Shown here in pieces: positions 16,571-31,638 of a stretch of 33,209 nucleotides of DNA (its first letter is position 1; every line of letters begins with the position of its first letter). The DNA is from Acidobacteriaceae bacterium (GTDB taxonomy: Bacteria > Acidobacteriota > Terriglobia > Terriglobales > Acidobacteriaceae), in the NCBI GenBank assembly GCA_025360645.1, contig JANYBT010000147.1, forward strand, positions 1 to 33,209. Direction: 5' to 3'. The notes beneath the pieces are model-generated. The model ran no database searches. It was not told where the DNA came from and saw only the letters and a program-made list of their open reading frames with translations. The position numbers were made by a program, and so were the translations under genes.

Positions 16571-19432
16571 GTGAAGTCTGTTCCCATGTCTAACCTCCGG
16601 GTTGTAGTGAGCCCCTGGCTCCAAGGTCTCGTGTTTTTTCTGGTGGCATCGGCTGTCTATCTCTACGCCTTTCCGCAGGCCAATGTGTTCTACGCAGCCG
16701 TGGTTTTGTTGCACGCGGCAGCCGGGGTCGCGGCAGCCATCTGGCTGGCGGCCAGGCTCTTGCGAATCTTGAAGGCCGGGGGCTTCCTCAATCGCGCGGG
16801 CTGGTCGCTGATCGGGCTGGGCGCCGTCCTCGGCCTGGCGCTGCTTTATACCGGCACGCCCCGCTCCGAATGGCGCTGGATGTACGCGCATCTCGGGCTC
16901 AGCTTTACTGGGGCCGCTTTGCTCTTGGCGGACGCGGCTGGACGACGTGGACGGCTTGCGTCTCAGCCCTGGGTGCGGGCCGCGGTTTGTCTCGTCGTGT
17001 TGGCCGGGATGGGAGCCGCCGCCAAATATTTGCGTGAGGCGCGCTGGCAAAATTCCTCGCGCATCGAGAACCCCAAGATGCCAGCTGCCACGATGGACGG
17101 CGAAGGCGACGGACCGAGCGGCAAGTTTTTTCCCAGCTCCGCCCAAATCTCCGGGGCGGAGAAAATTCCCAGCCAGTACTTTATGGAATCCGATTCCTGT
17201 AAGCGCTGTCATGAGGATGTGTACAACCAATGGTTCAGTTCAGCCCACCATTTCTCGTCATTCAACAATCAGTGGTACCGCAAGAGCATTGAGTACATGC
17301 AGGATACGGTCGGGACGCGGCCGTCGAAGTGGTGCGGCGGTTGCCACGACCCCGCGGTGCTCTACGCCGGGCTGATGGACACGCCGATCAAGCAGATCGT
17401 GCATACCGCGCCGGCACAGGCGGGCTTGGGCTGCATGATGTGCCACTCGATTTCGCAAGTGAAGAGCACCATGGGCCAGGCGGACTTTTACCTGGAATAT
17501 CCCAAGCTGCACGAGATGGCCGCCAGCAAGAACCCGGTAGTCCGAAGCCTGCACGATTTTCTGGTCAAGCTGAATCCCGAGCCGCACCGCCGCGTATTTC
17601 TGAAGCCGTTCATGAAAGACCAGACCGCGGAGTTCTGTTCCTCGTGCCATAAAGTGCACCTGGATGAACCGGTCAACCACTACCGGTGGATCAGGGGCTT
17701 TAACGAATACGACAACTGGCAAGCCAGCGGGGTTTCCGGGCAGGGCGCGCGGTCGTTCTACTATCCGACGAAGCCGTCGCAGTGCGCCGATTGCCACATG
17801 CCGAAGACCGCGTCGCGAGATATGGGAGCGGTGAATGGATTGATTCATTCGCACCGCTTTCCAGGCGCGAATACGGCGCTGCCCACCGCCAATGAAGACG
17901 CCGAGCAACTCAAGGCGACCACTGACTTCCTGAAGAGCGGCAGCCTGAAAGTGGATATTTTTGCGCTGGCACCGGCGGGCACCGCGATCATGCCGGGAGC
18001 GCAGAGCGAGAACGAGCTTTCGACCACATTTGCGGTGGGCGAAGAATCCGAAGCGAAGGTCCCCGCGCAACAGAGCGGAGAGGCCGGCCCAATTAGCGCG
18101 CCATTGAATAGAGTGCTGCCGGAGTTACGCCGCGGGGATGACGTGCGCGTGGACGTGGTGGTTCGCACCAAAGCGGTGGGCCACTTCTTTCCCGGTGGAA
18201 CGGTGGATGCCTACGATACCTGGCTCGAACTGAAGGGTACCGACGACCGGGGCCAGACCGTCTTCTGGAGCGGTATGGTGGAAGACGAGGGAAAAGGTCC
18301 GGTGGACAAAGGCGCGCATTTCTACCGCTCGCTGCAGGTGGACGAGCACGGGAATCCCATCAACAAGCGCAACGCCTGGTCCACGCGGTCGGTAGTGTAT
18401 GTGCGACTGATCCCGCCCGGCGCCGCAGATACCGTGCACTACCGGCTCCACGTACCAAACAGCGGAGGAGATAAGATCACACTGCATGCCCGTCTGCGTT
18501 ATCGCAAGTTTGCCTGGTGGAACACGCAGTTCTCATTTGCCGGAATGCCCGACCCAGCGTCCAAAGCGGAGGTCACCGCGAACTCCGACGACCGCAAGTT
18601 TGTCTTTACTGGATCGCTGGCGGGCGTGTCCGCCAAACAAGAGAAGATTCCCGATGTTCCCATCATCACCATCGCCGAGGATGAAGTGACTCTACCCGTG
18701 GTGGCCCGCACCGCCAAGACGGTCGCGCCGAGGACCGTTCTCGACAAGACGGACTGGCAACGCTGGAACGACTATGGCATTGGGCTTTTTCTGCAGGGAG
18801 ATTTGAAAGGTGCTGCAGCAGCCTTCCAGAGAGTCACGGAGATGGATCCCAGCAATCCCGATGGCTGGGTGAACATGGGCCGCGCGGCGGTGCAGGAGGG
18901 CGATATGGAACGCGCTCGCGTGGTGCTCGATAAGGCGCTGGCGCTCAATCCTTCACTGGCGAGGACCCACTTCTTTTACGCGAAAGTGCTGCGCTCGGAC
19001 GGCAACTACGACGGTGCTGCCGAACACTTGCGGCAAGTCATCACTCAATATCCGCGAGACCGCGTTGCCTTGAACGATCTGGGCCGCGTCCTGTTCCTGA
19101 AGCGCGAGTATAAACAGGCGGTGCAGGTACTGGAGTCGGTGCTGGCGGTGGACCCCGAAGACTTGCAGGCCCATTACAACCTGATGCTCTGCTACAACGG
19201 CCTGGGCGACGAGAAACAGGCGCACGAACATCAAGTTCGCTACTTGCGGTTCAAGGCGGATGAGTCCGCGCAGGCGATCACCGGCCCTTACCGGCAGTTG
19301 CATCCGGAGGATAACAACGAGAGGCAGGCGGTGCACGAGCATGTTTCCGTGCGATTGCGTGCGCCCACTCACCCGCGCGCCGCTGCTGCGCATATGGCGA
19401 CGACGGCGCAATCGCAAGGGGGCTCGAGATGA
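16571..19432 (+). CDS. Membrane-anchored five-haem c-type cytochrome with C-terminal TPR repeats
   Basis: The protein has 953 residues. The N-terminal ~155 residues hold four to five hydrophobic helices (about 17-34, 40-62, 79-94, 105-121, 136-152). An extracytoplasmic domain follows with five CxxCH haem sites: C210-KR-CH, C255-GG-CH, C288-MM-CH, C356-SS-CH and C405-AD-CH. Their spacing resembles the cytochrome c554 family. Isolated His residues between them may be distal ligands. A β-rich region spans about 500-720, and four or more TPR units span about 727-897. The tail is basic and low-complexity. The stop overlaps the next start as ATGA, so the genes are translationally coupled. The role is inferred to be electron transfer in a surface or periplasmic complex. 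The start could also be the ATG five codons in. Confidence 0.88.
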   Translation: MKSVPMSNLRVVVSPWLQGLVFFLVASAVYLYAFPQANVFYAAVVLLHAAAGVAAAIWLAARLLRILKAGGFLNRAGWSLIGLGAVLGLALLYTGTPRSEWRWMYAHLGLSFTGAALLLADAAGRRGRLASQPWVRAAVCLVVLAGMGAAAKYLREARWQNSSRIENPKMPAATMDGEGDGPSGKFFPSSAQISGAEKIPSQYFMESDSCKRCHEDVYNQWFSSAHHFSSFNNQWYRKSIEYMQDTVGTRPSKWCGGCHDPAVLYAGLMDTPIKQIVHTAPAQAGLGCMMCHSISQVKSTMGQADFYLEYPKLHEMAASKNPVVRSLHDFLVKLNPEPHRRVFLKPFMKDQTAEFCSSCHKVHLDEPVNHYRWIRGFNEYDNWQASGVSGQGARSFYYPTKPSQCADCHMPKTASRDMGAVNGLIHSHRFPGANTALPTANEDAEQLKATTDFLKSGSLKVDIFALAPAGTAIMPGAQSENELSTTFAVGEESEAKVPAQQSGEAGPISAPLNRVLPELRRGDDVRVDVVVRTKAVGHFFPGGTVDAYDTWLELKGTDDRGQTVFWSGMVEDEGKGPVDKGAHFYRSLQVDEHGNPINKRNAWSTRSVVYVRLIPPGAADTVHYRLHVPNSGGDKITLHARLRYRKFAWWNTQFSFAGMPDPASKAEVTANSDDRKFVFTGSLAGVSAKQEKIPDVPIITIAEDEVTLPVVARTAKTVAPRTVLDKTDWQRWNDYGIGLFLQGDLKGAAAAFQRVTEMDPSNPDGWVNMGRAAVQEGDMERARVVLDKALALNPSLARTHFFYAKVLRSDGNYDGAAEHLRQVITQYPRDRVALNDLGRVLFLKREYKQAVQVLESVLAVDPEDLQAHYNLMLCYNGLGDEKQAHEHQVRYLRFKADESAQAITGPYRQLHPEDNNERQAVHEHVSVRLRAPTHPRAAAAHMATTAQSQGGSR

Positions 19433-21225
19433 CGCGCGGATGCAAGCAAGAGCTGACCGCGGAGGCACGGAATCACGGAGCAATACCAGGGCAAAATCGC
19501 CAAATGTTTCTCAGTATCTCAGTGTCTCCGTGGGTATTAACGGTGATGCTGATTATGGTCAGCGTCGGCGCTTGGGCCCAGAAGATTACTTTCGCAGACG
19601 TCACCGCGAAGGCGGGAATTCAGTTCCAGCACAACAATGGAGCTCTCGGCAAGAAGTGGCTGCCGGAAACCATGGGTCCCGGCTGCGCGTTTATTGACTA
19701 TGACCGCGATGGATGGCCAGACATCCTGCTGCTGAACGGCACTGATTTTCCCGGACATCCCAAATCCGGTGCCACCACGCCCAAGCTCTACCACAACAAT
19801 CACGATGGCACCTTCACCGACGTGACGGTGAAAGCCGGACTCGCCGTCCCGATGTTCGCGCTCGGCGTTGCGGTCGGCGATTACGATAACGACGGCTTCG
19901 ACGACTTGTTCATCACCGCGCTGGGGCGGAGCCACCTGTTTCACAACACCGGTAAGGGTTCGTTCGTCGAGGTCACCAAGGCCGCGGGATTGTGGGGGCC
20001 ACACGAGTTTTCAACCGGCGCGGCCTGGGTGGACTACGACCGCGACGGGAAACTCGATCTGGTGGTTGCCAATTACGTGCAATGGTCGCCCGAGACGGAC
20101 ATCTACTGCACACTCGATGGAGCACACAAGTCCTATTGCACGCCCGAGTCGTACAAAGGCACCTCGGCCCGCTTATGGCACAACCTGGGGGGCGGCAAGT
20201 TCGAGGATGTGACTCACAAAGCGGGGATGTATGACGCTACCTCCAAGGGGTTGGGAATCGCCATTCTCGATTACAACAACGACGGCTGGCCCGATATCCT
20301 GATCGCCAACGACACCCAGCCCAACAAACTTTATCTCAACCGGAAGAACGGGACGTTTGAAGAGAAGGCTGTGGCGGCGGGCATCGCGTTCAGTGAAGAC
20401 GGAGTGGCGCGGGCCGGCATGGGCGTGGATGCCGCCGACTATGATCGCTCCGGCCATGCCAGCCTGATCATCAGCAACTTCGCCAACCAGATGCTGTCGC
20501 TCTACCACAATGAAGGGAACGGTCTCTTCGTGGATGAAGCCGCGCGGTCGGAGGTGGGCCGCTCCACGCTGGTGACGCTGGGGTTTGGCTGCTTCTTCTT
20601 TGACTACGACAACGACGGCTGGCCCGACATTCTGGTGGCCGATGGCCACATCGAAAACGAAATTGAGAAGGTACAGAAACGGGTGGCCTACGCCGAGCCG
20701 CCGCACCTGTTCCACAACCTGGGCGGTGGTAAGTTTCAGGAAGTGACAGGGCAAGTGGGCGCGGCGTTTGCATGGCCGAAAGTGGCGCGCGGAGCAGCCT
20801 ATGCAGACTTCGACAACGATGGCGCGCTGGATGTTCTAATGACCACCAATGCTGGCCGCGCCTGGTTGTTTCATAACCAAGGCGGGACCAACCAGAGCCT
20901 GCGGGTGAAACTGCAAGGCACGAAGTCAAACCGCGACGGGATTGGCGCAGTCGTCCGGGTCACTTCCGGCAAGGACAAGCAGTGGCAAATGGTGCGCTCT
21001 GGTTCGAGCTACTTGTCGCAGAGCGAACTGACGCTGACCTTCGGCCTGGGCGCTGCCGCCAAAGCCGATGTCGTTGAGGTCGAGTGGCCGAGCGGTCAGG
21101 TAGACAAGCTGTCCAATATCAATGCCGGAGAGACAGTGACGCTGGAAGAGGGCAAAGGTATAGTGTCCTCGCGACCGTACTCAAAAGGCTCGATCCCAGC
21201 CCCGAAGGGGCGAAAGAAAACATGA
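19429..21225 (+). CDS. CRTAC1 family secreted protein: FG-GAP/VCBS propeller with ASPIC/UnbV domain
   Basis: The protein has 598 residues. The ATG at 19429 overlaps the cytochrome stop (ATGA) and has AAGGGGG 6 bases upstream. A hydrophobic export signal ('WVLTVMLIMVSVGAWAQ') ends near residue 51, after an unusually long polar lead of ~25 residues. An internal ATG at 19504 would give a conventional signal peptide but lacks a Shine-Dalgarno motif. The mature protein carries about seven Ca2+-type loops of the D-x-D-x-D-G-x-x-D pattern (e.g. DYDRDGWPD, DYDNDGFDD, DYNNDGWPD, DFDNDGALD), consistent with a β-propeller. The 'YCTPESYKG' motif is typical of CRTAC1. An ASPIC/UnbV domain occupies about 488-580. 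It is probably a periplasmic or surface binding partner of the cytochrome. Confidence 0.9.
   Translation: MTRGCKQELTAEARNHGAIPGQNRQMFLSISVSPWVLTVMLIMVSVGAWAQKITFADVTAKAGIQFQHNNGALGKKWLPETMGPGCAFIDYDRDGWPDILLLNGTDFPGHPKSGATTPKLYHNNHDGTFTDVTVKAGLAVPMFALGVAVGDYDNDGFDDLFITALGRSHLFHNTGKGSFVEVTKAAGLWGPHEFSTGAAWVDYDRDGKLDLVVANYVQWSPETDIYCTLDGAHKSYCTPESYKGTSARLWHNLGGGKFEDVTHKAGMYDATSKGLGIAILDYNNDGWPDILIANDTQPNKLYLNRKNGTFEEKAVAAGIAFSEDGVARAGMGVDAADYDRSGHASLIISNFANQMLSLYHNEGNGLFVDEAARSEVGRSTLVTLGFGCFFFDYDNDGWPDILVADGHIENEIEKVQKRVAYAEPPHLFHNLGGGKFQEVTGQVGAAFAWPKVARGAAYADFDNDGALDVLMTTNAGRAWLFHNQGGTNQSLRVKLQGTKSNRDGIGAVVRVTSGKDKQWQMVRSGSSYLSQSELTLTFGLGAAAKADVVEVEWPSGQVDKLSNINAGETVTLEEGKGIVSSRPYSKGSIPAPKGRKKT
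19456..19546. repeat. Dispersed 'CACGGA' hairpin repeat, copy A (inside a coding region)
   Basis: The left arm (about 19456-19482) contains CACGGAATCACGGAG at 19466-19480. The right arm (about 19507-19535) reads TTTCTCAGTATCTCAGTGTC then TCCGTGGGT, an imperfect inverted copy matching in about 17 of 24 aligned positions. It shares 14 of 15 bases of its core with a second copy at 26412-26426. It lies within the N-terminal codons of the CRTAC1 gene. Confidence 0.7.
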
Positions 21226-24200
21226 AGCTCTCTCTCACCTTCAGCCTCATTCTCGCCGCCCTCTCCCTCTCGGCCGTCGGCGCCGCGCCGCAACAGGCTG
21301 CCCGCCTGAACAATCTCGGCGTGGCCTATATGAACCAGCAGCTTTTCGAGAAAGCTTTGAAGGCGTTCGACGAGGCTGCGCGTCTCGACCCCAAGCTGGA
21401 AGTGGCGCAGCTCAACCGCGGTGTCGCGCTGCTCAATCTGCAGCGGCCCGACGACGCCAGGCCGCTGCTCGATGAGGCGGTGAAGGTGAATTCCAGCGAT
21501 CCCAACGCCTGGTATAACCTGGGCCTGCTGCACAAGAACAACAGCGAAACAGAAGCGGCGGCCGCTGCATTCACGCGGGTCACGCAGCTCGACCCCGGTG
21601 ATTCCGACACCTGGTACTTCCTCGGCACCGTACATGCCCAAGCCCACCAGTATCCGCAGGCGATTGAGGCGTTTCAACACGCGCTGAAAGTGAACCCGCT
21701 GCATGCCTCGGCGGAGTTCGGGCTGTCGCGGTCTTACCAACAGTCGGGCGATGCAGAGCACGCCCGCGAGCACCTAAAGAAATTTCAGTACATCACGCAA
21801 AACAAACTCGGTTCGCCCATCAGTCTGGCGTATGGCGAGCAAGGGAAATACTCGCGGGTGGAGGAATCGCCCGCCGTGGTGGAGAAGGCGCCGGCAGGCA
21901 TCACGGTTAAGTTTGTGGATGTCACTGCCGGTGCCGGGCTGGGCGCAAAGCCGGGTGCGGCAGAAGTGAATCCGGGCAATGCGTCTCTTCTTGGACCCGG
22001 CGCCTGCTTCCTCGATTACGACAACGACGGTTTGATTGACCTGTTGTTGACTGGCAACGCCGGCGCGGGCGGTCTCACGCTATATCACAATGCCGGCAAC
22101 GGAAAGTTTGAGGACGTCACCAGGAAAGCGGGACTGGACCCCACGCTGCACCCCGTGAGCTGTGCGGTAGGAGACTACGACAGTGACGGCTTCGCTGATA
22201 TTGCTTTGAGCTTGAACAACCGCGTGCTGTTGCTGCACAACGAAAAGAACAAGACGTTCAAAGATGTTACGCAAGCGGCGGGAATCAGGGCCGCCGGGCC
22301 CAACGTCGCTCTGACCTTCATCGACTACGACCACGACGGCGACTTGGATCTGTACGTTACGCAAGCGCAATTTGAAGCCAGGGACTTGGCGCGTTCGCCT
22401 GATTCTACGGACGACGCCTTCGCGGATGCCCTGCAAAAGCCAAAGCCGGCGGGCAATTGGGCCAACCAACTCTGGCGCAACAATGGCAATGGGACGTTCA
22501 CCGACGTTAGTCAAGAAACGGGTTTGGCGTCGAAGGGGTACTACACCGCCGTGGCCGGCACCGACTACAACAATGACCGCGCCGTCGATATGGTGCTGGC
22601 AGGCTGGCGAAGCGGAGCCACGATTTTTGAAAATCCCCGCGAAGGCGCTTTTCTTGCGCGCAACCCGTTCCCGCCGGCGACGGATGTAAACGGAGTCGCC
22701 GTGCTTGATTACAACCACGACGGTTGGATGGACTTTGCCTTTACCCATCCCGATGGACGCGGCATTTCTCTTTGGCGCAGCGAGGATGCCGTGGAGTTTA
22801 CGCCCGTTCCTCACCCTCGGCTCAATTGGGCGCGCGGCTGGGGCATCGCCGCCGTTGATTACGACAACGACGGCTACGTCGATCTGGTTGCGGTTGGAGA
22901 AACCCCCGACGGCCGCGGCGAGGTCCGCCTTTGGCGCAATCTTGGACTCGGCGGATGGAAAGACGTCACCGCCGAAACCGGGCTGGATAAGATTGCCCTC
23001 CAAGAGCCCCGCGCGATCATCGCCGGCGATTTCGACAACGATGGTGCGGTCGATCTCCTCATCACGCAGAACCACGGGCCCGCTGTGTTGCTACACAACG
23101 AAGGCGGAAACAAGAACAATTCATTGCGTCTCGTGCTCAAGGGATTGAACGACAACAAGAGCGCCATCGGGACCAAGGTGGAAGTCTTCAGCGGTACGCT
23201 CAAGCAAAAGTTTGAAGTCTACGGCGCAACGGGATATCTGGGGCAGAACTCGCCCTACTTGACGATCGGTTTGGGGCAAGCGAAAGAAGCTGATGTGGTC
23301 CGCATGCTATGGCCCACCGGCGTGTTGCAGGACGAGGTAGAGATCGCCGCCAACAAGACCCAGCTCTTCCTCGAAATTGACCGTCGCGGCAGTTCTTGTC
23401 CCACGCTGTTTGCCTGGGACGGCGAGCACTATGCGCTGGTGGGTGACATGCTGGGCGCGGGCGTGGTGGGACACTGGGTCGGTCCCAACCAGCGCAACAT
23501 CGCGCGTCCAGTCGAATACGTCAAACTCGACCGCCATACCCTCCGCGAAAAAGACGGCAAGCTCAGCTTCCGTTTCATGGAGCCTCTGGAAGAGTCGGTG
23601 TATCTCGATCAAGTACAGTTGCTGGCGGTCGATCATCCCGCTGGTGTCGAGGTCTATCCCAACGAATATTTCGCCAGCAATCCGCCGTATCCAGTGTTCC
23701 GGGTGGTGTTCGCGGGCGACGCGCAACCTCCCGCAGGGGCCTGGGACGAGCACGGCCACAACCTGCTGCCCGATCTGCTTGCCCATCGCTACGTTGGCGA
23801 CTTCAAGGTGCTGCCCTTCGCCGGATTCACCGAGCCCCACACGCTGGAACTCGATCTGGGTCAGTCTTACAGCGGCGGCCCGCTGTGGCTGCTGCTGCAC
23901 GGAGAGATTGAGTACTTCTCGGCGACCAGCATGTACGCGGCCGATCAAGCACACTTGCAACCATTTGCTCCCTACGTCGAAGCGCTAAATGCGCAAGGCA
24001 AGTGGGTGCGTGTGGTGGACGACCTCGGTTTTCCCGCCGGCGGCTCGCGCACCATGACCGCTAATTTGACCGGCAAGCTTCCTGTAGGCACGCGGCGAAT
24101 TCGTTTTACTACCAACCTGCAGATTTATTGGGATAACATCCTGATCAGCCGCACCAGTCAGCAGCAGAGCTCGCGGCTGACTCCGGTTCCGTTGGCGCAA

Positions 24201-24680
24201 GCCCAGCTCGGGTTCCACGGATTCCCGCTGAAAATTGAAAACCGGCCTCCCGGCAACGTCGCCTACATCTACGAAAAAGCCAGTGCAACGGGGCCTTACA
24301 CGCGTCCCGCCGGAGCATACACGCGCTATGGCGATGTGCGGCCGCTACTGAGCGCCACAGACGACAAGTTTGCCGTCTTCGGGTCGGGCGACGAGGTGGC
24401 GCTGGACTTCGATCCCGCAAAACTGCCGGTCCTGCCGCACGGGTGGGTGCGGGACTACTTCTTTGCCGCCCAAGGATACGAAAAGGACATGGACTTTTAC
24501 GCCTATCGTGGCGATACCGTCGAGCCCCTGCCGTTCGGAGGCATGGGCACGTATCCGTATGTGGGGAAGTCTTTCCCAGGCGATGCCGAACACTTCAACT
24601 ATCTGCTCGAATACAACACGCGGTTCCTATCGGGAAACGAGGCGGGGGGATATTCGTTCCGCTACCCAGACAAGCCGTGA
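21222..24680 (+). CDS. Secreted TPR-FG-GAP-ASPIC/UnbV protein with a long unassigned C-terminus
   Basis: The protein has 1152 residues. The ATG at 21222 overlaps the previous stop (ATGA) and is followed directly by a signal peptide ('MKLSLTFSLILAALSLSAVGA'). Further open codons exist upstream but run through the previous gene. TPR units span about 25-190 ('LNNLGVAYMNQQLFEKALKAFDEAARLDP' and repeats). A propeller with about seven Ca2+-type loops follows (DYDNDGLID, DYDSDGFAD, DYDHDGDLD, DYNHDGWMD, DYDNDGYVD, DFDNDGAVD; one, DYNNDRAVD, lacks the Gly). An ASPIC/UnbV domain is at about 633-715. From about 723 to the end is a ~430-residue region opening 'LFAWDGEHYALVGDMLGAG', predicted mostly β, which I cannot assign. 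It is the third gene of the cytochrome operon. Confidence 0.88.
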   Translation: MKLSLTFSLILAALSLSAVGAAPQQAARLNNLGVAYMNQQLFEKALKAFDEAARLDPKLEVAQLNRGVALLNLQRPDDARPLLDEAVKVNSSDPNAWYNLGLLHKNNSETEAAAAAFTRVTQLDPGDSDTWYFLGTVHAQAHQYPQAIEAFQHALKVNPLHASAEFGLSRSYQQSGDAEHAREHLKKFQYITQNKLGSPISLAYGEQGKYSRVEESPAVVEKAPAGITVKFVDVTAGAGLGAKPGAAEVNPGNASLLGPGACFLDYDNDGLIDLLLTGNAGAGGLTLYHNAGNGKFEDVTRKAGLDPTLHPVSCAVGDYDSDGFADIALSLNNRVLLLHNEKNKTFKDVTQAAGIRAAGPNVALTFIDYDHDGDLDLYVTQAQFEARDLARSPDSTDDAFADALQKPKPAGNWANQLWRNNGNGTFTDVSQETGLASKGYYTAVAGTDYNNDRAVDMVLAGWRSGATIFENPREGAFLARNPFPPATDVNGVAVLDYNHDGWMDFAFTHPDGRGISLWRSEDAVEFTPVPHPRLNWARGWGIAAVDYDNDGYVDLVAVGETPDGRGEVRLWRNLGLGGWKDVTAETGLDKIALQEPRAIIAGDFDNDGAVDLLITQNHGPAVLLHNEGGNKNNSLRLVLKGLNDNKSAIGTKVEVFSGTLKQKFEVYGATGYLGQNSPYLTIGLGQAKEADVVRMLWPTGVLQDEVEIAANKTQLFLEIDRRGSSCPTLFAWDGEHYALVGDMLGAGVVGHWVGPNQRNIARPVEYVKLDRHTLREKDGKLSFRFMEPLEESVYLDQVQLLAVDHPAGVEVYPNEYFASNPPYPVFRVVFAGDAQPPAGAWDEHGHNLLPDLLAHRYVGDFKVLPFAGFTEPHTLELDLGQSYSGGPLWLLLHGEIEYFSATSMYAADQAHLQPFAPYVEALNAQGKWVRVVDDLGFPAGGSRTMTANLTGKLPVGTRRIRFTTNLQIYWDNILISRTSQQQSSRLTPVPLAQAQLGFHGFPLKIENRPPGNVAYIYEKASATGPYTRPAGAYTRYGDVRPLLSATDDKFAVFGSGDEVALDFDPAKLPVLPHGWVRDYFFAAQGYEKDMDFYAYRGDTVEPLPFGGMGTYPYVGKSFPGDAEHFNYLLEYNTRFLSGNEAGGYSFRYPDKP

Positions 24681-30903: not shown

Positions 30904-31638
30904 TTAGGAGGCCTTGTCGCCCGCTTGCATTCTGGCGTTGGCGTCGGCGGTGATTTGGTTGCGCACCGCCCACAAGTCTTTGTACATCAGGTGCTCCATG
31001 CGCTGGTGCAGCACTTCGACCGGTGTTCCCATGGTTCCCACGACTCGTCCGCCGATGATCCGCTCGGCCAGCTTGAGGTGGTGGAAGCGAAACAACTGCA
31101 TGCGCTCGTCGAAGTCGAGCAGGCGCTCGGCGACGTCGTGCAGGCCGAAGTGCTGGTCGTGGTGGCGGTATACCTGATCGACCGTTAGTCCGGCATGATG
31201 GATGCGGTCCAACAGCGTCTGGCCCAATCGTGGAGCCACATGCAGCAGCGAAAGGAAGCCGGGCGAGTCCAGTCCGCTGCCATGGCCCAGACCGGCGCGG
31301 ATGACGTGGTAGTCGTAGGGCGTGATGGTCTCCAGCACATGCAGAATGGAGATAGGGAAGTCCAGCATCATGTTGCAGCGGCGAATCAGGCGGGCGGCGT
31401 TGTTGTAATCGTCCGTTTCGATGCAGTGTAGCGCGCGCTCCAGGTCGAAGGCCGCACCTTTCATCACCAGTTCTGAGCTTTGGTGCACCACGAGAAACGT
31501 CATCTCGTCAGGATGCGAAAGCTGATCAGCCGCCTTTTGCAGGGCCAGCAGTTCATCGGTGTGAAGATAACGCTCGTAGTCGGACGCGCCCTTTCCGGGC
31601 AAAATCGGCTTTCGTAAATCTTCTGCGTTATTGGACAT
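30904..31638 (-). CDS. Tryptophan 2,3-dioxygenase-fold haem protein, divergent
   Basis: The protein has 244 residues, shorter than typical bacterial tryptophan dioxygenases (about 280). The ATG at 31638 is preceded by GGAG. 'FLVVHQSSELVMK' (48-60) matches the distal-pocket motif, with H52 in the active-site His position. 'FRFHHLKLAERIIG' (183-196) matches the proximal haem-ligand motif with H187, followed by 'GTMGTP'. The segment that should carry the carboxylate-binding Arg (GFQSYQYR in Xanthomonas) reads 'GLDSPGFL', so that Arg is absent. The fold and haem site look kept, but the substrate probably differs from free L-tryptophan. It lies 30 bp downstream of the ABC ATPase, probably in one operon. 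Confidence 0.88.
   Translation of the reverse strand: MSNNAEDLRKPILPGKGASDYERYLHTDELLALQKAADQLSHPDEMTFLVVHQSSELVMKGAAFDLERALHCIETDDYNNAARLIRRCNMMLDFPISILHVLETITPYDYHVIRAGLGHGSGLDSPGFLSLLHVAPRLGQTLLDRIHHAGLTVDQVYRHHDQHFGLHDVAERLLDFDERMQLFRFHHLKLAERIIGGRVVGTMGTPVEVLHQRMEHLMYKDLWAVRNQITADANARMQAGDKAS

Follow-up and report, generated by a model that had tools for sequence, protein, structure and literature searches.

In CbcL, MtrH and MtoC, a b-type membrane domain and a periplasmic multihaem c domain are joined in one chain, and these proteins are described in the available excerpts of the literature as inner-membrane quinone oxidoreductases (PMC9129911, PMC6295460). CbcL carries nine c-haems first and ends with six helices holding two b-haems, similar to HydC/FdnI (PMC6295460). 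ImcH, which occurs in Acidobacteria among others, begins with three membrane helices and continues into a multihaem c domain, with 6–10 CX2CH motifs in its homologues, and is a proposed quinol oxidase (PMC6295460). CymA, of the NapC/NirT type, has one short N-terminal membrane domain and four haems (PMC6295460). The CRTAC1 family was linked to cytochromes, among the matches listed, only in an excerpt on the HZS-like alpha/beta-gamma clusters: there, genes for haem proteins, part of them containing cytochrome c554 domains, enclose or adjoin a gene of the CRTAC1 family (PMC12758564). An excerpt of PMC3174227 names an ASPIC/UnbV paralogue of Solibacter, with no cytochrome link in that portion of the text.

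The window analyzed here is a stretch of 33,209 nucleotides from an Acidobacteriaceae genome, and contains the following three genes.

16571..19432, + strand: gene 1 (953 aa; alternative ATG at 16586)
19429..21225, + strand: gene 2, CRTAC1-type, with seven FG-GAP loops and UnbV_ASPIC (598 aa)
21222..24680, + strand: gene 3, with signal peptide, TPR, seven FG-GAP loops, UnbV_ASPIC and a C-terminal beta-rich region

We propose, with a probability of about one half, that the locus encodes a b1c5 membrane cytochrome (gene 1) with a dedicated CRTAC1 partner (gene 2), and that gene 3 is accessory. Gene 1 resembles CbcL in joining a membrane domain, a candidate b-type one, to a multihaem c domain, which is a likeness of role. 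Unlike CbcL, its five helices and single His pair come first and are followed by five c-haems, a beta domain and TPRs, and it has a CRTAC1 partner; the CbcL order, with the c domain first and a six-helix, di-haem HydC/FdnI-like b domain last, was not found. With membrane helices at its N terminus and a multihaem c domain behind them, gene 1 is also reminiscent of ImcH in role, whereas the five helices, the His pair and the five motifs place it outside the ImcH type, and its five helices and five motifs likewise separate it from CymA and the NapC/NirT type. The models of MtrC/OmcA outer-membrane cytochromes stayed below their cut-offs, with 28.1 bits versus 30 (PF22113) and 19.4 versus 209.3 (TIGR03507, the decahaem model). 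Genes 2 and 3 resemble CRTAC1/ASPIC-UnbV proteins, both Pfam domains being matched above the cut-off with seven loops in each. They differ from such proteins in being bacterial and in having dedicated cytochrome neighbours, and gene 3 is extended by TPRs and by its C-terminal region. The locus also differs from the HZS-like clusters, since gene 1 encodes a membrane protein that is built differently; HZS_alpha (PF18582) had no match in the genome of the window and was present in 24 of 247 phylum-sample genomes.

Gene 1 and its candidate b-haem site

The features of gene 1 are as follows.

16613..17056, + strand: membrane domain (residues 15–162; five predicted helices)
16712..16714, + strand: codon of H48 in helix 2, proposed haem b ligand
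16889..16891, + strand: codon of H107 in helix 4, proposed haem b ligand
17198..17212, + strand: haem c site 1, CKRCH, residue 210
17333..17347, + strand: haem c site 2, CGGCH, residue 255
17432..17446, + strand: haem c site 3, CMMCH, residue 288
17636..17650, + strand: haem c site 4, CSSCH, residue 356
17783..17797, + strand: haem c site 5, CADCH, residue 405
17945..18703, + strand: beta domain (residues 459–711) with the motif GHFFPGG..D
18761..19240, + strand: TPR region (residues about 731–890)

The five CxxCH sites, membrane helices and TPRs of the original prediction were all found, and the helices, five in number, were predicted at residues 15–33, 39–69, 72–94, 98–126 and 133–162. In the Pfam results for gene 1, which list 25 of 31 families, residues 209–293 matched PF13435 (cytochrome c554-type multihaem) with 27.8 bits, above the gathering score of 20.8, and residues about 399–723 had no match. 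The membrane domain (residues 15–162) had no Pfam match of use, none of the known b-type families reaching a useful score; among the matches listed, this includes the Pfam names that we take to belong to the HydC/FdnI-like b-type family. The predicted model was poor near the haems, with pLDDT below 50 at residues 225–252 and 362–409. It matched mainly TPR chains, over its TPR part, among the 50 best matches listed for each search, and TPR chains were also returned by the PDB sequence search (best 60 matches).

Conservation was very strong in the haem-surrounding core and in the beta domain. All five c-haem sites were kept in the 27 aligned rows of the family, orthologues and paralogues together, with the haem 1 site being CX4CH in three paralogues, and residues H538 and D546 of the GHFFPGG..D motif were conserved family-wide. 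This alignment covered 21 of 25 paralogue places, with frame-picking errors at loci such as L086, L103, L142, L143, L157 and L158; alignment A3, in which some paralogues were cut short, was excluded from the counts.

Within residues 14–162, where the median column conservation was 48%, only H48, G52, G88 and H107 were conserved at 100%. Residues H48 and H107 were each kept in 83/83 orthologues and 4/4 paralogues with letters at these positions. H48, G52 and H107 were found in all 16 aligned rows having the membrane domain, among them ten paralogues whose core identity was only 25–38%, and the His pair was absent from all 11 rows lacking the domain. Each histidine is located nine residues past the start of its helix (39–69 and 98–126). 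By our reading of the topology, with an odd number of helices and the positive loops inside, both would lie near the periplasmic side at equal depth. The conserved H48, H107 and G52 in an otherwise variable five-helix part are new, and the likely b-haem site formed by H48 and H107 was absent from the original prediction. Read in this way, gene 1 would be a quinone-linked b1c5 cytochrome and a membrane electron-transfer protein, not an anchored periplasmic one, and it is probably a single-chain membrane cytochrome with one b-type and five c-type haems. The one feature that points to a quinone oxidoreductase role is the conserved His pair, and two invariant histidines could bind quinone or a metal instead. 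Paralogues without the membrane domain exist (11/27 aligned rows), so that the c5 domain can evidently function on its own; among these 11, just 4 had a CRTAC1 gene within 3.5 kb. Gene 1 as a substitute for the bc1 complex was rejected, since cytochrome b (PF00033) was present both with and without gene 1 (36/41 genomes).

Pairing with gene 2 and variability of gene 3

The features of the junction and of genes 2 and 3 are as follows.

19429..19432, + strand: gene 1/gene 2 stop-start overlap, ATGA
19455..19480, + strand: palindromic repeat, left arm, within the gene 2 leader
19510..19535, + strand: palindromic repeat, right arm, encoding part of the signal-peptide region
20938..21141, + strand: UnbV_ASPIC domain of gene 2 (72.8 bits versus Pfam cut-off 23.4)
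21294..21791, + strand: N-terminal TPR region of gene 3
23163..23360, + strand: UnbV_ASPIC domain of gene 3 (53.1 bits versus Pfam cut-off 23.4)
23361..24677, + strand: C-terminal region of gene 3 (residues 714–1152; confident model, pLDDT 89)
23715..24161, + strand: galactose-binding-like (F5/8C, CBM32/CBM35-type) jelly roll of gene 3 (residues about 832–980)

A CRTAC1-family gene was located within 3.5 kb of gene 1 in 80 of 87 orthologue places, and in 78 of 87 it was downstream on the same strand. Compared with 9 UnbV domains in the 3.8 Mb of the window's own genome, this arrangement is not due to chance. Five of the seven places without such a neighbour had less than 2 kb of contig left, and the other two (L108 and L149) had gene 1 and enough contig, yet no CRTAC1 neighbour. 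Among the ten TM-bearing paralogues, eight had a CRTAC1 gene downstream and two were at contig ends. For the trees, 20 orthologue loci were selected, and a pair was obtained from 19. In an informal comparison, the cytochrome tree and the tree of the CRTAC1 partners matched in outline, including the split of two paralogue groups, with shared descent ignored; cytochromes and partners were therefore probably duplicated together. Gene-2-type CRTAC1 proteins were also found in G140, without a neighbouring gene-1 family member, and in G247, where no gene-1 family match was obtained at E 1e-20. A CRTAC1 protein of G168 was placed beside a paralogue-partner clade, and the only gene-1 match of that genome was at the TPR level.

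Full gene 1, defined as places above about 600 bits (a cut chosen by the author), was present in 22/41 genomes of the relatives set and 30/247 of the phylum sample, after exclusion of seven genomes whose E-values indicated a match to the TPRs only. Every one of these genomes had UnbV genes (22/22 and 30/30, shared descent ignored). UnbV genes were all-or-none per genome in the relatives set, close relatives having 3–18 CRTAC1-type genes present or absent all at once, but not phylum-wide, where 20 of 113 positive genomes had one or two. Gene-1 relatives without UnbV were found in G089, G101 and G037, that of G037 being a paralogue fragment in a genome 75% complete. These counts cover Acidobacteriota; the wider search gave at least 562 confirmed matches, of which 80 were kept. 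A missing c-type cytochrome assembly was rejected as the cause of gene-1 absence, since PF01578 was present in 41/41 genomes of the relatives set.

The ATGA overlaps that had been predicted at 19429–19432 and 21222–21225 are both in the sequence. In the survey of 71 loci with gene 2 downstream, the window included, in-frame ATG, GTG or TTG starts overlapped the stop codon of gene 1 in 41 (4 nt in 20 loci, 1 nt in 21; raw counts with no chance rate), while a start 0–30 nt past the stop was found in 11 and none in 19. The hydrophobic core of the gene 2 signal peptide is about 25 codons past the 19429 start, so that a start near 19504 is possible. The pairing in the junction hairpin did not demonstrate covariation (410/494 cells paired versus 403.7 ± 3.4 in shuffles, maximum 413), and the promoter and terminator scan gave no excess over shuffles.

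The calcium-type loops and ASPIC/UnbV domains expected in genes 2 and 3 were recovered, each protein having seven Dx[DN]-type loops, one of them degenerate, and PF13517 (FG-GAP repeats) was matched with 176.7 and 156 bits, respectively, above the cut-off of 26.9. The TPRs expected again in gene 3 were located at its N-terminal side. Counted from its ATG at 21222, gene 3 is 1152 aa long; a start further upstream in the frame lies at 21084. The PDB sequence search returned mainly TPR chains among the best 60 matches, and also a Cartilage acidic protein 1 chain (9etn). The C-terminal region had no Pfam family among the matches listed. Its model, compared effectively over about model residues 63–279, matched the jelly roll with VIA-align Z values of 7.9–10 (best 50 matches) and weakly by Foldseek (best E 2e-3).

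In relatives, the gene 2–gene 3 junction, taken from the most upstream start, mostly had gaps of 6–282 nt and few overlaps, and the overlap is not a general trait. The gene 3 C-terminal domain was found downstream in 36 of the 56 gene-1 places with enough contig, and was absent from 20; gene-3-like genes were also found away from gene 1. Gene 3 is a lineage-specific addition, and the conserved core consists of genes 1 and 2. The original prediction is thus partly supported: an extracytoplasmic redox unit is backed for genes 1 and 2 by the 80/87 places, the trees and the co-occurrence, but a single complex of all three with fixed stoichiometry is not supported, the search among relatives having found a conserved gene 1–gene 2 order and a variable gene 3.

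Proposed mechanism and alternatives

We infer that one b-type haem sits within the five N-terminal helices, close to the periplasmic side of the membrane, with H48 and H107 as ligands, and that the periplasmic domain carries five c-type haems, followed by the beta domain and TPRs. The b-haem would most likely exchange electrons with the quinone pool, and the five c-haems would relay them, transfer from quinol to the periplasm being thought the likelier direction. Gene 2, presumably made by coupled translation, would be a secreted calcium-type propeller docked on the cytochrome as its dedicated periplasmic partner. Gene 3, with its TPR, second CRTAC1 unit and lectin-like domain, would be an accessory in this lineage, and may either enlarge the complex or attach to polysaccharide of the cell envelope or the soil.

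A tentative alternative is that gene 1 is a terminal enzyme, in which a c-haem with a free site reduces or oxidises a small periplasmic substrate and the active site is shielded or oriented by the propeller, a role that it might also have in hydrazine-synthase-like assemblies. In 27/27 rows only four non-motif histidines (H226, H339, H428 and H538) were conserved for five haems, although H363 (84/84) and H227 (83/84) were kept in orthologues and could be fifth ligands. The very high conservation of the haem-surrounding core and the beta domain speaks for this reading; however, no known catalytic haem fold was found among the matches listed, which are filled by TPR chains, the model being poor there. 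In addition, the excerpt of PMC12758564 places CRTAC1 genes next to homologues of HZS alpha and beta-gamma, and among 29 HZS_alpha places at least 7 had a UnbV domain within 2 kb.

It is improbable that the unit passes electrons to or from the cell exterior through an outer-membrane porin-cytochrome conduit. In the window's own genome, a ten-haem cytochrome precedes an MtrB/PioB-like protein (L170; 21.3 bits versus cut-off 23), and there is also a 16-haem cytochrome (L169), but an MtrB-like porin was found in only 4/41 genomes, compared with 22/41 for full gene 1, and one porin genome (G020) lacked full gene 1. A conduit with this MtrB-like porin was therefore rejected as a general partner.

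That genes 1 and 2 adjoin for expression or export only, with no joint action, is very unlikely: CRTAC1 genes are many in Acidobacteriota (9 UnbV domains in the window's own genome), the neighbours retrieved around those at L165–L167 included no haem protein, and linked genes are expected to give similar trees, but the pairing in 80/87 places, the match of trees across old duplications and the co-occurrence across genomes argue against it.

Few groups of soil bacteria are as common as the Acidobacteriota, whose respiration is in large part uncharted. No assigned function for the gene-1 cytochrome was found in the literature among the matches listed, and the gene 1–gene 2 pair, read as a b1c5 cytochrome with its CRTAC1 partner, suggests a type of respiratory or redox machinery that has so far gone unstudied. 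A bolder and rather doubtful reading is that it represents an undescribed Acidobacteriota class of b1c5 quinone-linked cytochromes, and that the ancestral role of bacterial CRTAC1/UnbV proteins was as dedicated calcium-dependent partners of multihaem enzymes. If true, the proposal would explain the all-or-none CRTAC1 genes of close relatives and their presence in every cytochrome-bearing genome. Gene 1 gives bacterial CRTAC1/UnbV proteins a concrete partner, and hence a test.

Conservation of the gene 1–gene 2 pair

The three open frames of the original prediction and both of their ATGA junctions were found in place.

16571–19432, plus strand: gene 1, membrane cytochrome
19429–21225, plus strand: gene 2, FG-GAP and UnbV_ASPIC protein
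21222–24680, plus strand: gene 3, TPR, CRTAC1 unit and C-terminal region

The five CxxCH motifs, membrane helices and TPRs of gene 1, the seven loops and UnbV_ASPIC domain in each of genes 2 and 3, and the TPRs of gene 3 were also located as predicted. Genes 2 and 3 both belong to the CRTAC1 family. In the window, a CRP/FNR-type regulator and an amidase formed the upstream flank of gene 1, and an aminotransferase-V protein formed the downstream flank on the opposite strand. Counting the window, 31 of 81 compared loci contained the amidase family, and its position beside gene 1 looks like local synteny. On the minus strand at 30904–31638, a short frame matched tryptophan 2,3-dioxygenase in two segments, with 84.7 bits in Pfam and 124 in NCBIfam (cut-off 390.7); it may represent a divergent or broken copy.

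Full-length orthologues of gene 1 (match above 600 bits) were found in 22 of 41 genomes, comprising the window's own genome and 40 relatives. In a scan of named genomes with gene 1, the best 80 of 562 confirmed loci were all Acidobacteriota by title. Orthologue places were counted in 138 fetched loci (L033–L170), the window left out. A CRTAC1-family gene was located within 3.5 kb at 80 of the 87 places, and downstream on the same strand at 78. The neighbor was missing at seven places. At five of these (L034, L041, L099, L111, and L112), less than 2 kb of contig remained beside gene 1; L108 and L149 are real exceptions. The CRTAC1 gene of L064 was on the opposite strand, and L084 had only an upstream CRTAC1 gene within reach. 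The nearest CRTAC1 gene was upstream on the same strand in 16 loci including L084, 15 of which also had a downstream one. The C-terminal domain of gene 3 was present downstream of gene 1 at 36 of the 87 places and absent at 20, and the contig was too short at 31. The three-gene order was thus conserved for the gene 1–gene 2 pair and in part for gene 3. Because of the frequent CRTAC1 neighbor and the 20 absences, genes 1 and 2 form the core and gene 3 is an addition.

Among the 41 genomes, UnbV domains were all-or-none, with 3–18 in 26 genomes and zero in 15, and were present in all 22 genomes having full gene 1. Four genomes (G002, G009, G015, and G016) had UnbV without full gene 1, and G002 and G016 contained a gene 1 paralogue. 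G037, which was 75% complete and lacked UnbV, contained a paralogue fragment. Across the phylum, UnbV was found in 113 of 247 genomes, and the all-or-none pattern failed because 20 of these 113 had just one or two. UnbV accompanied full gene 1 in 30 of 30 phylum genomes (Fisher p 6e-12, shared descent ignored) and the haem-core family in 75 of 77, with the exceptions of G089 and G101 (p-values again ignore shared descent). The C-terminal domain of gene 3 was found anywhere in the genome in 29 of the 30 with full gene 1, whereas it was found in 60 of the 217 others. Cytochrome c assembly genes and bc-type cytochrome b were ruled out as the cause of the pattern because they were found in 41 and 36 of the 41 genomes, respectively.

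Paralogues were examined in a 27-row set composed of the window, five other orthologues, and 21 paralogues. Eight of the ten paralogues bearing a membrane domain had CRTAC1 downstream within 3.5 kb, and the contig ended for L138 and L159. Among the 11 without the domain, CRTAC1 was within 3.5 kb on either side in four (L121, L134, L139, and L153) and missing in L133, L135, L136, L137, L145, and L163, while L161 was cut short. Over all 25 paralogue places, 16 had CRTAC1 within 3.5 kb, and in 13 of these it was downstream on the same strand. With 8 of 10 against 4 of 11, the tightest CRTAC1 association is that of the membrane-bearing form. A separate cluster in G009, which lacks full gene 1, contained 7-, 8-, and 7-haem proteins, TPR proteins, and three CRTAC1-type genes (L164:1–15347, contig C197).

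Trees were built from 32 rows of the cytochrome core and 62 rows of CRTAC1 (32 partners and 30 others, the latter including L054, outside the chosen orthologues, and L064, with gene 2 on the other strand). The two trees agreed in outline. The nine CRTAC1 partners of one paralogue group formed a clade (support 100/97) whose branching order matched that of their cytochromes. The L139–L142 partners shared a clade with a single further row (L117, G168), adjoining the orthologue partners; the L139 cytochrome sat on a long branch of its tree, and long branches may be drawn together. L165–L167, CRTAC1 loci elsewhere in the window's genome, fell outside both partner groups. The misfits in the gene 2 clade were L116 (G247) and L129 (G140), which had no adjoining gene 1; G247 gave no gene 1 family match at E 1e-20. 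Since linked genes share descent, the weight of the trees rests on agreement across paralogue groups.

Junctions and the palindromic repeat

The junction was compared in 71 loci with gene 2 downstream, including the window and five partial genes, with ATG, GTG, and TTG as starts. The gene 2 start overlapped the gene 1 stop by 4 nt in 20 loci and by 1 nt in 21, was located within 30 nt past the stop in 11, and was not found at that site in 19. Loci outside this set lacked a gene 2 within 1.5 kb (five), remaining contig (three), or an intact gene 1 frame (two). The overlaps across loci make it likely that genes 1 and 2 have long been translationally coupled in part of the family. The spacing of genes 2 and 3 in relatives, by the most upstream start, was mostly a gap of 6–282 nt, and a few overlaps were also seen. 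In L050:11400–11745 and L019:7403–7748, the gene 1 frame was broken ahead of the last TPRs, by assembly error or a real break; these contigs are equally long and probably the same one.

A palindromic repeat with 26-nt arms followed the start codon at the junction, ahead of the core of the gene 2 signal peptide.

19455–19480 and 19510–19535: arms of the palindromic repeat, CACCACRGAGNCACRGAGNCACRGAG and its complement

The right arm codes for part of the signal peptide. The repeat was also observed at the junction in L033, L036, L046, L053, L057, and others. Both arms were found at the junction in 19 of 76 loci and the right arm alone in 10, compared with 0 of 2906 control windows. In 2.05 Mb of loci searched, all 29 matches of a strict 16-mer were at the junction, in 22 loci. 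The same 16-mer was dispersed in 16 of 20 whole genomes, with up to 51 matches per genome. Retention and repeated insertion are both candidates for its occurrence at one site.

Membrane, haem, and C-terminal domains

Few columns of the gene 1 membrane part were conserved. In an alignment of 21 sequences, His48, Gly52, Leu91, and His107 were found in all and Gly88 in 20. In a wider alignment, His48, Gly52, and His107 were conserved in 83 of 83 orthologues and in 4 of 4 paralogues having letters there, and Gly88 in 83 of 83 and 5 of 5, respectively. These two histidines and two glycines were the sole 100% positions within residues 14–162, where median conservation was 48%. In the 27-row set, His48, Gly52, and His107 were present in all 16 rows with a membrane domain (3–5 segments by a simple hydropathy count). 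The other 11 rows lacked the His pair and began with a signal peptide or nothing recognizable, with partial exceptions in L161 (His at 48, Gly at 52) and in L145 and L153 (Gly at 52). Five helices were predicted, and His48 and His107 were each nine residues inside their own helix. Such an arrangement, with paired histidines equally deep in two helices and a glycine four positions further along, resembles the b-haem sites of helical-bundle cytochromes. The membrane domain matched no Pfam family at a useful score, and is likely a new type of putative b-haem domain. Because the loops are inside-positive and the helices odd in number, the c-haem domain is read as periplasmic, with the His pair near the periplasmic side.

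Five c-type sites were found in 27 of 27 rows; L139, L144, and L162 counted four CxxCH motifs because site 1 was CX4CH. Outside the motifs, His226, His339, His428, and His538 were invariant in 84 of 84 orthologues, 12 of 12 paralogues, and all 27 rows. His363 was conserved in 84 of 84 orthologues and 2 of 12 paralogues, and His227 in 83 of 84 and 1 of 12. With four such histidines for five haems, the family-wide pattern may leave one haem without a distal histidine. The structure model of gene 1 was middling (pLDDT 68), and the matches in fold searches were taken up by the TPR part.

The C-terminal 439 residues of gene 3 had no Pfam match among those listed, and were matched in 89 of 247 phylum genomes. 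The model was confident (pLDDT 89), and residues ~832–980 resembled a galactose-binding jelly-roll fold (F5/8C, CBM32/CBM35). VIA-align Z values were 10.0–7.9 among the 50 matches listed, mostly with 108–140 residues aligned at 2.8–4.4 Å; Foldseek gave none under E 1e-3 (best 2e-3). A role of the modeled jelly roll in sugar binding or docking is a guess.

Proposed role and related systems

The main rival to an electron-transfer role is that gene 1 encodes an enzyme with a free haem site. The one porin type searched for had a distribution (4 of 41 genomes) that did not support a general outer-membrane route. Elsewhere in the window's genome, a ten-haem cytochrome preceded a protein whose MtrB/PioB match was weak and below the cut-off (L170:6756–9841, contig C66); the two are likely a porin–cytochrome conduit. 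Contig C19 (L169:4270–9189) contained a 16-haem cytochrome and a 4-haem protein, with a SurA-like rotamase and a cytochrome c assembly gene nearby.

As far as can be told, gene 1 is alike in role to CbcL (PMC9129911, PMC6295460) and ImcH (PMC6295460) but lacks the defining layout of either. The nearest published hint found of a CRTAC1–multihaem link was the HZS-like clusters in PMC12758564. In the phylum sample, at least 7 of 29 HZS_alpha places had a UnbV domain within 2 kb (G240:C35, G127:C401, two places in G193:C1, G279:C209, G213:C15, and G208:C1), and these pairs resemble the CRTAC1–HZS homologue clusters as described there.

The cytochrome–CRTAC1 pair is real, widespread, and co-inherited. 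The best reading, proposed here, is a route in which a quinol or other donor would give electrons at the periplasmic side of the membrane, from which they would pass through one b-haem to the five c-haems and then to a partner held by the TPR and propeller surfaces.
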